Source of the DNA: Alistipes montrealensis
Lineage (GTDB): Bacteria > Bacteroidota > Bacteroidia > Bacteroidales > Rikenellaceae
NCBI RefSeq assembly: GCF_018362775.1
Contig: NZ_JAGYXY010000003.1
Location: forward strand, 124,001-188,000
Length of the DNA stretch: 64,000 bases
Direction of reading: 5' to 3'
Position numbers and translations under genes: made by a program. Numbering within the stretch: the stretch's first letter is position 1; each line of letters starts with the position of its first letter. Under the pieces are notes generated by a model. The model saw only the letters and a program-made list of their open reading frames with translations. It searched no databases and had not been told where the DNA came from. Positions 1,578 through 61,850 of this stretch are shown here, in pieces.

Positions 1578-3149
1578 ATGCGCCGATTGTTCGTCATACT
1601 CGCTACCCTTTCCGTCCTGCCCCTCGCGGCGCAGAACGAAGACGACGTGCGCCAACTCCAGAAGTTCGCGCAGGTTTTCCGTTATCTTTCGGGCCTTTAT
1701 GTCGATGACGTGGACATGAAACCCGTCGTCGAAGGAGCCATCACGGGCATGCTCGAAGAGCTCGACCCCCACTCGGCCTATATCGGAGCCGAGGAGATGA
1801 AAGGCGTGCAGGAGAGTTTCGACGGCGAATTCAGCGGCATCGGTGTGGAGTTCAACGTGCTGCGCGACACGGTGATCGTGGTCAACACCATCGCCGGAGG
1901 CCCTGCCGAACGGGTCGGCGTGCGTGCCAACGACCGTATCGTGCGCATCGATACGCTGAGTTCCGTGGGTATGGGACGTGCCGACGTGCCCAAATACCTG
2001 CGCGGAAAGACCGGCACGAAGGTCGAGATCGACGTTGTGCGCCACGGTACGCCCGGGCAGCTTCATTTCGTGATCGTCCGTGACAAAATTCCCCTGAACA
2101 CCGTCGATGCTTCCTACAAGGTCGCCGACGACATCGGCTACATCAAGGTCAACCGTTTCGGCCGTACCACGATGGAGGAATTTACCGAGGCTTTCCGCAA
2201 ACTGGGTAAACCCGGAGGCCTGATCCTCGACCTGAGGGGCAACGGCGGCGGCCTGCTGGAGCAGGCGATCGAGATGGCGGGATTTTTCCTGCCGCGCGGG
2301 GCCGTGATCGTCTCTACGGAGGGGCGCGCCGTCCCGGCTTCGTCGTTCCGCGCCCAGAACAACGGCGAGGACCTCAAGGACCGCCTCGTGGTGCTGATCG
2401 ACGAGTCGTCGGCTTCGGCCTCGGAGATCGTCGCGGGGGCTGTGCAGGACTGGGACCGCGGCGTGGTCGTAGGCCGTCCGAGTTTCGGCAAGGGACTCGT
2501 GCAGCGCCAGATCGGGCTGCCCGACGGGTCGGCCGTGCGTATTACCGTAGCTCGCTACCACACTCCTTCGGGCCGCGTTATTCAGCGGCCTTATGAAAAG
2601 GGCAAACGCCGCGAATATTACCTCGACCACCTGCGCCGCTACGACGACGCTGCGCGCGATTCGCTCGACGCGGAGGCTCCGGCTTACCGCACGCTTCGCA
2701 CCGGACGTACGGTTTACGGCGGCGGCGGGATTCGTCCCGACGTTCTTGTCGAAGCCGACACGGCAGGCTATTCGAATTATTACGCCGAACTGATCCGCCG
2801 CGGCGTCGTGGCCGATTTCGTGGGCGACTGGCTCGACGGATCGCGTGACAGCCTTTCGCGCCGTTATACGACCTTCGGCGCGTTCGACGCGGGATATACC
2901 CCTTCGGACGAAGTGCTCGACGCCCTTACGGCGCTCGGCGAAACCCGGGGCGTGAAGTTCGATGCGGAAGGGTTCGCCGTTTCCGAACCCCTGATGCGGA
3001 TGCAGCTCAAGGCCCTCGCAGCCCAGCGCCTGTTCGGTACTGGCGCTTATTTCCAGGTCATTAACCCGGCCATGAGTCCTGCGTATGCCCGGGCCGTGGC
3101 GATTCTCGAAGATTGGGACAAGTCGGGACAACCCGTCCTGGAGCCGTAA
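1578..3149 (+). CDS. S41-family carboxyl-terminal processing protease (CtpA/Tsp-like)
   Basis: A periplasmic serine protease of the tail-specific protease family, 523 aa. An N-terminal signal peptide is visible (MRRLFVILATLSVLPLAAQ). A PDZ domain spans about residues 80-170 ('GIGVEFNVLRDTVIVVNTI ... RANDRIVRID'), followed by the S41 core with 'GLILDLRGNGGG', the nucleophile region 'SASASEIVAGA' (Ser about 280) and the general-base lysine in 'FGKGLVQ' (Lys about 305). The 25-residue spacing matches the Ser-Lys dyad of Tsp. The C-terminal 150 residues are a family-typical helical tail. It stands alone between hisS and the DUF3276 gene. Its substrates cannot be deduced. Confidence 0.93.
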   Translation: MRRLFVILATLSVLPLAAQNEDDVRQLQKFAQVFRYLSGLYVDDVDMKPVVEGAITGMLEELDPHSAYIGAEEMKGVQESFDGEFSGIGVEFNVLRDTVIVVNTIAGGPAERVGVRANDRIVRIDTLSSVGMGRADVPKYLRGKTGTKVEIDVVRHGTPGQLHFVIVRDKIPLNTVDASYKVADDIGYIKVNRFGRTTMEEFTEAFRKLGKPGGLILDLRGNGGGLLEQAIEMAGFFLPRGAVIVSTEGRAVPASSFRAQNNGEDLKDRLVVLIDESSASASEIVAGAVQDWDRGVVVGRPSFGKGLVQRQIGLPDGSAVRITVARYHTPSGRVIQRPYEKGKRREYYLDHLRRYDDAARDSLDAEAPAYRTLRTGRTVYGGGGIRPDVLVEADTAGYSNYYAELIRRGVVADFVGDWLDGSRDSLSRRYTTFGAFDAGYTPSDEVLDALTALGETRGVKFDAEGFAVSEPLMRMQLKALAAQRLFGTGAYFQVINPAMSPAYARAVAILEDWDKSGQPVLEP

Positions 3150-41845: not shown

Positions 41846-42955
41846 ATGGACAGATTTTTCCTTACAACATGCCTATTTGCCGCGCTCCTCACGGGCTGCG
41901 GAAAGCACACGCCGAAGCAGGTGATGCCGCCCCTGCGGGTCGGAGTAGCCGTGTCGGCGGTCGACAGCGTTCCCAACCGCATGAGCTTCATCGGTTACCT
42001 CGCGAGCAACTTCGACGCCGTGATCCAGCCGCGCGTAACCGGCTACCTCTCGTCGAAACAATACGGCAACGGCATGCCTGTCCGGCGCGGGCAGCTGCTC
42101 TTCACCATCGACCCCAACCAGTTGTCGACTTCGATGCTGGCGGCCGAGGCCGAGCTCGAATCGGCCCGGGCGCAGGCCCTCGAAGCCCGCAACAACTACG
42201 ACCGCGCCGTACCGCTGGCCCGCATCAACGCCATCAGCCAGTCGCAGTTGGACCAGTATACGGCGCAATGGAAAGCCGCCGAGGCGTCTGTGCGTTCCGC
42301 GGAGCAGTCGCTGCTGAGCGCCCGGCTCAATGTGAGTTACACCGAACTGCGTTCGCCGATCGACGGCATCATCGAACACACAGCAGCGCATGTGGGCGAC
42401 TATGTGGGCCCGGGCACGCAGTTCAGCGTACTGACGACCGTATCGAACATCGACACGCTGACGGTCGACGTGGCGATCCCCATGTCGCAGTACCTGCGCT
42501 ATGCAGGGGACCGGACTTCGATTTACGACAACGATGGGCTGCTCTCGGACATCCGTCTCGTGCTGGCCGACGGCTCGCAGTATCCCCACGAGGGACTCTA
42601 CGACTACACGCGCAAGGACGTTTCGTCCGCTACCGGGACGCTCGTGCTGGTGGTGATGTTCCCCAACCCCGACGAAGCGCTGAAACCGGGCCAGTTCGCC
42701 CGCGTCGAGGCCAACGTCGGACCCGTGCGGCCGAGGATCGTCGTTCCCCAGCAGGCCGTGAGCCAGGCGCAGGACATCTCGTCGGTGTGGGTCGTGGCGG
42801 CCGACAGCACGGCGCAGTACCGCCGCGTCACGCCCGGTGAAACCTACGGCGCACTGTGGTGCATCGACGAAGGACTGGACAGCGGCGAACAGGTCGTGGT
42901 CGCCGGACAGCAGAAACTGCGCAACGGCGCGAAGGTAATTCCCGAAAAGAGGTAG
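41846..42955 (+). CDS. RND efflux periplasmic adaptor (MexA/AcrA-like lipoprotein)
   Basis: 369-aa membrane-fusion protein. The lipobox 'LLTGCG' (Cys about residue 17) anchors it to the inner membrane. 'SFIGYLASNFDAVIQPRVTGYLSSKQYGNGMPVRRGQLLFTID' is the lipoyl/beta-barrel signature, followed by a helical hairpin ('LLAAEAELESARAQALEARNNY'-type) and 'LNVSYTELRSPIDGIIEH' (second lipoyl half). It links the permease to the outer-membrane channel. It is the first of three tightly spaced genes; the permease starts 4 nt after its stop. Confidence 0.92.
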   Translation: MDRFFLTTCLFAALLTGCGKHTPKQVMPPLRVGVAVSAVDSVPNRMSFIGYLASNFDAVIQPRVTGYLSSKQYGNGMPVRRGQLLFTIDPNQLSTSMLAAEAELESARAQALEARNNYDRAVPLARINAISQSQLDQYTAQWKAAEASVRSAEQSLLSARLNVSYTELRSPIDGIIEHTAAHVGDYVGPGTQFSVLTTVSNIDTLTVDVAIPMSQYLRYAGDRTSIYDNDGLLSDIRLVLADGSQYPHEGLYDYTRKDVSSATGTLVLVVMFPNPDEALKPGQFARVEANVGPVRPRIVVPQQAVSQAQDISSVWVVAADSTAQYRRVTPGETYGALWCIDEGLDSGEQVVVAGQQKLRNGAKVIPEKR

Positions 42956-61164: not shown

Positions 61165-61456
61165 GGCGGGAGTCGAACGTGGCGAAGCCATCCTCACCGA
61201 CCGAGCGCCGTTGTCGCCCGCAGGGCGGTACGGGGTTTCGCGACGGAGGTAACCCGCATCCAAAAAAAACAGTGCCCCGGAGAACCGGAACGCTGCGTTT
61301 CAGTGGAGGTGGCGGGAGTCGAACGTGGCGAAGCCATCCTCACCGACCGAGCGCCGTTGTCGCCCGCAGGGCGGTACGGGGTTTCGCGACGGAGGTAACC
61401 CGCGTCCAAAAAAAACAGCGCCCCGGAGAACCGGAACGCTGCGTTTCAGTGGAGGT
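61165..61456 (-). repeat. Two 146-bp tandem units derived from the tmRNA 3' end
   Basis: Units 61165-61310 and 61311-61456 differ at only two positions I can see (cgcAtcc/cgcGtcc and cagTgcc/cagCgcc). Read on the minus strand, each contains TTTGGACGCGG, a 75-nt insert, GTTCGACTCCCGCC (shared with the ssrA T-arm and acceptor stem), an acceptor end and a terminator. A third, intact and uninterrupted copy is the real ssrA 3' end at 61457 onward. The distal unit loses identity at 61165. Confidence 0.85.
61408..61441 (-). terminator. ssrA terminator
   Basis: Minus strand: CAGCG ... CCGG-loop-CCGG ... CGCTG (61416-61441) followed by eight U (complement of 61408-61415). The same structure recurs 146 nt further on at 61262-61295, with one broken base pair in its stem. 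Confidence 0.85.
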
Positions 61457-61850
61457 GGCGGGAGTCGAACCCGCGTCCAAACAGGGAACCCGAAAGCTTT
61501 CTACACGCTTAGCCACCATTTGATCCTTCTCCCCGTGCCTGGCAGGCAGCGACCGAACGCGGGGCCCAGTTCCTAAATTTTCGCGCACCGGCCGGAACAC
61601 TCCGGCGCACTATCTCTAAATGGATGATACCCCGTATGAAGAGCCGTTAAAGAGCGGAACGTCCCTTCGGGATACTCGTCGCCAAAGCGCCTAGGCTTCA
61701 GCGATTAAGCCAATTTTCCTTGAAAATTAGGCAGCGAGTGCAAGGCTGTTATTGCCATTTGTAGTTCGAGCATCGGGATTAACGAGCCGCCACACAGCGC
61801 TCGGCGTGCTTACAATCAAACTCTGCCTGCTGTCAAAACCAGGCACCCCC
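61450..61850 (-). ncRNA. ssrA: tmRNA (transfer-messenger RNA)
   Basis: About 401-nt tmRNA that rescues stalled ribosomes by trans-translation with SmpB. The 5' end GGGGGTG (complement of 61844-61850) pairs with the 3' CACCTCC to form the acceptor stem, with discriminator A at 61450. The T-arm reads GCGGGTTCGACTCCCGC. The 5' part has the conserved 'CCTGGTTTTGACAGC' start. The tag frame is on the minus strand at 61756-61727, giving GNNSLALAA and then TAA, which fits the Bacteroidetes G..(Y)ALAA type. CCA is not encoded. Confidence 0.93.

Follow-up and report, generated by a model that had tools for sequence, protein, structure and literature searches.

The window, by which we mean the whole stretch of 64,000 nucleotides from Alistipes montrealensis that was analysed, carries on its minus strand an intact ssrA gene for tmRNA, the sole match at gathering score in an Rfam scan of the window. 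The gene is followed by two tandem units, and the locus comprises these features.

61449..61850, minus: intact ssrA (tmRNA), called by ARAGORN; Rfam RF00023 at 61447-61850, 144.6 bits
61457..61470, minus: T-loop/T-stem core of the authentic ssrA 3' end, GTTCGACTCCCGCC (repeat search, sequence)
61408..61447, minus: proximal ssrA terminator hairpin with T-run, within unit 1 (read from the sequence)
61311..61456, minus: unit 1, the proximal tandem unit of 146 bp, with 2 differences from unit 2 (repeat search)
61319..61400, minus: type A hairpin element of unit 1 (model R1, 73.6 bits, E 1.9e-16, scores that are not independent of training, since the training set of R1 contains one window copy, row L060 of alignment A1)
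61311..61324, minus: displaced T-loop core that opens the second 3' half, 21/21 against the ssrA 3' end
61165..61310, minus: unit 2, the distal tandem unit of 146 bp (repeat search)
61262..61301, minus: distal ssrA terminator hairpin with T-run, within unit 2 (read from the sequence)
61173..61254, minus: type A hairpin element of unit 2 (R1, 73.6 bits, E 1.9e-16, with the same dependence on training)
61165..61178, minus: last displaced T-loop core; the acceptor part past the core has diverged (15/21 match)

Read along the minus strand, the order is ssrA, terminator, the 5' strand of the T-stem (GGACGCGGG), TT, an insert, GTTCGACTCCCGCCACCTCCA and the terminator again. The 146-bp block is present twice, as direct repeats at 61165-61310 and 61311-61456 (146 nt, 99% identity, 2/146 positions different), with the 14-nt core at 61165, 61311 and 61457; in the distal unit, the acceptor part is missing from the final ssrA 3' half (15/21). 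The first-pass annotation had described two nearly identical units that each repeat the ssrA 3' half and its terminator, with a split T-arm in both and an intact true ssrA 3' end beside them, and all of this was borne out, the insert standing between the T-stem 5' strand and the T-loop. What it missed is that the conserved part is the insert itself, which recurs at other tRNA genes of related genomes. In unit 1, the element follows the plan GGTT-(hairpin ACC..GGT)-GA-(hairpin GGATGGC..GCCAC)-GTTCGA.

By BLAST, the 146-bp unit is unique to the ssrA locus in the window's own 3.48-Mb assembly. A motif-free scan for second 3' halves in the examined parts of the same genome covered 50 tRNA/tmRNA genes, 45 of them testable, and returned ssrA as the only real case. 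The cut-off for a 3' half was set at 13/18, as 11/18 admitted background and was dropped. Two tRNA-Val entries of locus L382 passed 13/18 and were rejected because the copy sits behind run-in N of the assembly. At L382 (G000 C8) a tRNA-Asn/tRNA-Val block is duplicated, and the N at its joints suggest that this arose in scaffolding. A tRNA-Ser (cga) that ARAGORN calls at 42138-42220 of the window, minus strand, is absent from the Rfam tRNA list of the genome and is possibly a false call. The same scan in genome G102 took in 33 genes, 27 of which have the motif and 300 nt downstream; eight pass, and three further genes carry elements whose 3' half is poorer or missing.

A covarying double hairpin in the genus

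A BLAST search with the unit against 61 genomes matched seven, all within the genus, with partial matches near a tRNA-Glu gene and near tRNA-Lys genes. In G002 the ssrA copies are also in tandem and only ~75% alike to the window unit. The apical stem is kept there with other letters (GCCC/GGGC in the window, ATTT/AAAT in G002), and ssrA loci differ in the number of units. For the wider survey the genus was sampled with 180 genomes, one per species. The pattern GGTTACCTC-N{38,64}-TCGGTGA occurs in 35/180 of them as against one for the reversed control, some single matches being due to chance; seven loci that matched the pattern but did not have the structure (L058, L063, L065, L075, L077, L080, L081) were dropped ahead of modelling. 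Alignment A1 holds 51 elements from 59 distinct sequences, some with corrected ends; eight were omitted, mainly for doubtful ends or near-duplication.

The alignment speaks for a conserved fold. Of its 1032 cells, 90.8% are paired, compared with 25-48% in slid controls, a comparison that favours pairing to some degree because the pairing was proposed from the same sequences. There are 144 double-change cells against a shuffle mean of 38.6, a number that 0/500 shuffles reach, and seven G-U cells. A weak measure of covariation gives 32 further pair types against 28.9, a value attained by 43/500 shuffles. The covariance model built from the 51 copies (R1) finds 126 matches in 34/180 genus genomes, up to 18 per genome, which is a lower bound because strict filters were used. 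We call this family type A. Its members are non-coding, measure ~75-100 bp and have the form GG-TT-(long imperfect hairpin)-GA-(second hairpin)-TTCGA; the element therefore sits between the T-stem and the T-loop of a partial tRNA/tmRNA copy, and this copy lies downstream of the intact gene. The window insert is a member of this covarying family, not a random scar. Each window unit carries one type A element of ~75-100 bp, and the second unit would have arisen by tandem duplication of the block made of 3' half, terminator, T-stem and element.

A purely local origin, in which the ssrA 3' end was simply duplicated in tandem and slippage and template switching kept the stems of neutral palindromes perfect, would account for the two near-identical units and for a unit number that varies among ssrA loci. 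It leaves unexplained the blocks common to 51 aligned copies at many tRNA loci, and also the copies in an intergenic repeat described below, and we regard it as improbable. The first-pass suggestion of a locally amplified small repeat fares in the same way: it holds for the copy number in the window, but not for the family.

Position behind tRNA and tmRNA genes

Type A is represented by 125 distinct copies. A tRNA or tmRNA gene on the same strand stands no more than 700 nt upstream of 109 of them, 11 are too near a sequence end for judgement, and five are without such a gene (L073, L286, L288, L290 and L291, the last a weak R1 match of 35.6 bits); two R1 matches in L298 were excluded from these counts as repeats of L066. 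For 18/109 no TTCRA lies within 60 nt, and several of these copies are inner array members. The remaining 91 scored copies span 19 types of tRNA/tmRNA gene. The 3' half that follows the element is mostly that of the gene in front: it matches the copy's own gene at 13/18 or more in 69/91 (at least 17/18 in 55) and falls short of 13/18 in 22/91, while about 10% of non-cognate halves reach 13/18. On average a copy matches its own gene at 15.5/18 and other genes at 10.3, and the own gene is strictly the best match for 63/91 copies. In many Val copies, and in some Gln and Lys copies, the match is confined to the T-stem part. It had been argued beforehand that a unit found at many loci unrelated to tRNA or tmRNA genes would be a general dispersed repeat. 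The core is indeed dispersed, yet almost exclusively at tRNA/tmRNA genes.

A second sequence of the same plan, type B (GGTTGCGnGGATA..TATCCnCGCGAG), occurs at 61 places in 39/180 genus genomes. When all loci were read, 38/46 distinct copies stood after a tRNA or tmRNA gene on the same strand, eight were too near an end, and none lacked a gene; the 3' half reaches 13/18 in 29/34 scored copies. Types A and B share the plan GG-TT-(hairpin)-GA-(hairpin)-TTCGA, but their sequences are unlike. A third hairpin sequence (GCCGA..TCGGC), which we refer to as type C and whose plan is similar, takes the same T-loop position at ssrA of G087 (L020) and G091 (L039). At ssrA of G144 there are tandem units of ~160 bp (L011, 1949 and 2110, minus strand) in which the second T-loop is preceded by a much shorter insert, neither A nor B. 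A survey of tRNA-Cys found a second 3' half at 9/30 loci from 29 genomes, with 3/30 loci ending within 200 nt. The element is type A in G080, G112, G102 and G194, and type B in G085, G104, G031, G087 and G088; in G102 a type B unit follows the type A unit, and G006 has a truncated type A.

A place in the T-loop and a duplicated 3' half are the classic pattern of attachment sites, and the first-pass annotation had read the units as scars of successive integration and excision at ssrA. In its fuller form this reading makes the copies remnants of phages or islands that entered and left at 3' ends, with the insert as the conserved attP arm of their integrase. The T-loop tie, the duplication of the displaced 3' half and the existence of filled and empty sites all agree with it. 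Scars of successive integrase-driven islands are nevertheless unsupported, as what is repeated is the insert: a double hairpin that covaries, measures ~75-100 nt and occurs at 19 gene types (91 scored copies). One conserved arm at so many types misfits integrases that are specific for a tRNA; moreover, bare elements stand in head-to-tail arrays, copies exist outside tRNA genes, and three strict patterns gave no match in IMG/VR, in a search run without a positive control. We consider this reading quite unlikely. At L073, a frame on the plus strand (1923-3059, cut at the locus end) matches the integrase arm-binding domain PF17293 (E 2.3e-5); at a threshold of E 0.001 it matches no catalytic integrase domain. 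The frame lies upstream of a complete type A element, in the position that the tRNA has at other copies, and a tRNA-Glu 3' fragment adjoins; since it takes the place of the tRNA, element and island look separate at L073. A weaker pattern matched at least 120 stretches of viral contigs; 11 of the 120 listed pass one stem check, none of these has other family features by eye, and the matches were put down to chance.

Searches outside the genus gave nothing beyond background. The type A pattern, run on a class sample of 247, matched ten other genomes once each against 11 for the reversed control, and these matches were dismissed as chance. BLAST with the unit returned no match in 24 genomes from the order, R1 none in a further family (59 genomes, without a positive control), and the type B search none in a 393-genome sample of the order that included the genome of the window. 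As the work outside the genus relied on patterns, BLAST and R1 only, it would have passed over relatives that have other sequences. In the literature, as far as its texts were accessible to us, including passages of PMC8040213, PMC2800124 and PMC9897764 and with subscription journals and preprints outside the scope, the element family is not described.

Folded DNA or RNA, and the proposed entry of the element

The apical stems, parsed in 58/63 type A cores and 47/51 type B sequences, contain 384 Watson-Crick pairs and a single G-T pair (1/385), with three A-C and 16 other pairs set aside, some of these from misparsed loops. The acceptor and T-stems of the tRNAs at the loci read served as control and contain 1230 Watson-Crick and 104 G-T pairs (104/1334), with four A-C and 19 others set aside. 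Fisher's test of Watson-Crick against G-T pairs in element and tRNA stems gives P 5e-11, a value that is optimistic because the copies share ancestry. The near-absence of G-T from stems that are otherwise variable points to folded DNA. A strict Watson-Crick constraint is expected of folded DNA, or of template-switching repair. Under plain duplication, template switching would likewise remove G-T mismatches. Folded as DNA, the window element does no better than its shuffles (z -0.25); three other stretches have z -1.1, -2.2 and -5.5.

These data bear on the idea that the elements are structured regulatory or tRNA-mimicking RNAs, co-transcribed with the gene; they would fold into a three-way junction that the T-stem closes, and would either take part in the processing of tRNA or serve as a decoy 3' end. 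The conserved structure, the orientation on the gene's strand and the mostly cognate 3' half would suit such RNAs, as would the invariant blocks GGTTACCTC and TCGGTGA, though both of these are in the pattern that gathered the copies. Against it speak the ratio of G-T to Watson-Crick pairs (1 to 384, as against 104 to 1230 in tRNA stems) and the patchy distribution (type A in 34/180 genomes, type B in 39/180). At most of the loci displayed, gene and element are separated by a terminator-like hairpin (tRNA-Gly of G102 is an exception); as the window element, too, lies behind the terminator of its gene, it is less likely to act as a transcript, and the position of the terminators fits the DNA reading. 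Nor does any element in the window or at 13 further loci match Rfam at gathering score, the matches at these loci being only tRNA, tmRNA and one SAM-II. We therefore judge an RNA function to be unlikely; the element family probably spreads as folded DNA and does not work as RNA. The SAM-II riboswitch lies at 1166-1226 of L213, above gathering score. A permissive Rfam scan of L006 (351 bases) gave ten sub-threshold matches, the best of which, mir-4679 (E 3.8e-6), lies beyond the element.

Filled and empty sites give an indication of how the element may enter. At tRNA-Cys of G088, the 247 bp from the end of the gene to the end of the second 3' half include a type B element and are followed by a terminator, which resembles the one directly after tRNA-Cys in G078 and G091, where there is no insert. 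In G029, three type A copies (L286, L288 and L290) stand at nACATT^CCC of an intergenic repeat, which occurs without the element at another locus of the same genome (L277), just behind a tRNA-Met element. The elements have TT at both ends, extending up to ACATT in the intergenic repeat, and in head-to-tail arrays they are joined at TT; the longest of these, at tRNA-Asp of G102, has four elements. Inner elements of the arrays viewed have a T-run in the second hairpin. The G088 site, the G029 repeat and the TT-joined arrays together suggest TT-ACC...A as the unit and TT as its point of entry. The three copies away from tRNA genes, which come from one genome and have similar flanks, may represent one insertion that spread with the host repeat. 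An intergenic palindrome starting ACATTCCC, which serves as a host for copies away from tRNA genes, occurs at L018, L040, L277, L286 and other loci.

Two further arrangements bear on this. At tRNA-Cys of G112, a type A element follows a terminator resembling that of empty sites in other species, an order less well explained by one simple insertion. Many longer spacers contain a larger unit of terminator, palindrome with GAGCAAGCTCCC, left motif and element, of which the duplicated 3' half may be a part. Much of the distribution may be vertical, because several tRNA sites are common to different species. In the spacers between tRNA and element (for example L213, L214 and L208), a palindromic module with GAGCAAGCTCCC or a variant of it is recurrent, and at some loci its loop looks, by eye, complementary to the left motif TTGCTCAC.

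Together, our data suggest small, mobile, non-coding hairpin DNA elements that enter at TT and prefer the T-loops of tRNAs, a reading to which we assign a probability of roughly 0.6. The element would enter as folded DNA, with the T-loops of tRNA and tmRNA genes as its preferred sites. No enzyme was found in a transposase survey that covered Y1 (PF01797) in the 180 genus genomes. We rejected the Y1 transposase as the mover, as it is present in G062 and G063 only, neither of which has type A or B; the PF01797 control matched in 5/14 known genomes. If the mobile-hairpin reading is correct, tRNA 3' ends host tiny non-coding DNA hairpins besides phages and islands, and the family offers a natural test of folded-DNA recombination with many sequence solutions per shape. 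It would also account for the fragments of tRNA 3' ends, and for the tandem repeats next to tRNA genes, that the genus shows. The scarcity of G-T pairs is a simple marker of DNA-level as opposed to RNA-level structure in genome scans.

Comparison with known systems

The elements share with phages, ICEs and islands that target tRNA or tmRNA genes the T-loop target, the duplicated 3' half and the restored gene. They differ from these in that the units viewed have neither integrase nor cargo, and in that one type of element is found at many tRNA genes. REP and BIME palindromes are short, dispersed and non-coding, and often come in pairs or arrays. In all of this they are like the elements described here; unlike the REP/BIME-RAYT system, nearly all of our elements are at tRNA/tmRNA genes, and Y1_Tnp occurs in 2/180 genomes, neither of them a carrier.

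The junction of integron attC sites lies between the G and the TT of GTT. The head-to-tail arrays of our elements with their junction beside TT resemble cassette arrays. Types A and B have a plan but not a sequence in common, and recognition of the element by its fold may be proposed by analogy with attC. Unlike integron cassettes, the elements are gene-less in the units viewed, and their docking site is the T-loop of a tRNA. It is possible, though we hold it only tentatively, that T-loops are the docking sites of an integron-like system, in which a putative shape-reading recombinase would insert gene-less cassettes in the form of folded single-stranded DNA and stack them at TT, with the T-arm as primary site; the cassettes would have several unrelated sequences but one three-way-junction plan. 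In the parts of the account available to us, attC sites are described as recognised by their folded structure, with little sequence conservation (PMC2727003).

Mitochondrial repetitive and double hairpin elements, according to the available passages of their description, consist of one or two hairpins, occur in tandem copies and are thought to be mobile in fungi by a mechanism that is still open (PMC2800124). Our elements are likewise small units of one or two hairpins in tandem copies; the same passages mention no tie to a tRNA T-loop and no duplicated cognate tRNA 3' half for the mitochondrial ones (PMC2800124). Within Bacteroidales, the accessible portions of a study of Porphyromonas gingivalis describe MITEs as short non-autonomous repeats of its genome (PMC4596501). 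Like MITEs, the elements have a short direct repeat at their ends (TT) and both filled and empty sites, including an empty copy at another locus of the same genome; unlike MITEs, they have a site-specific target.
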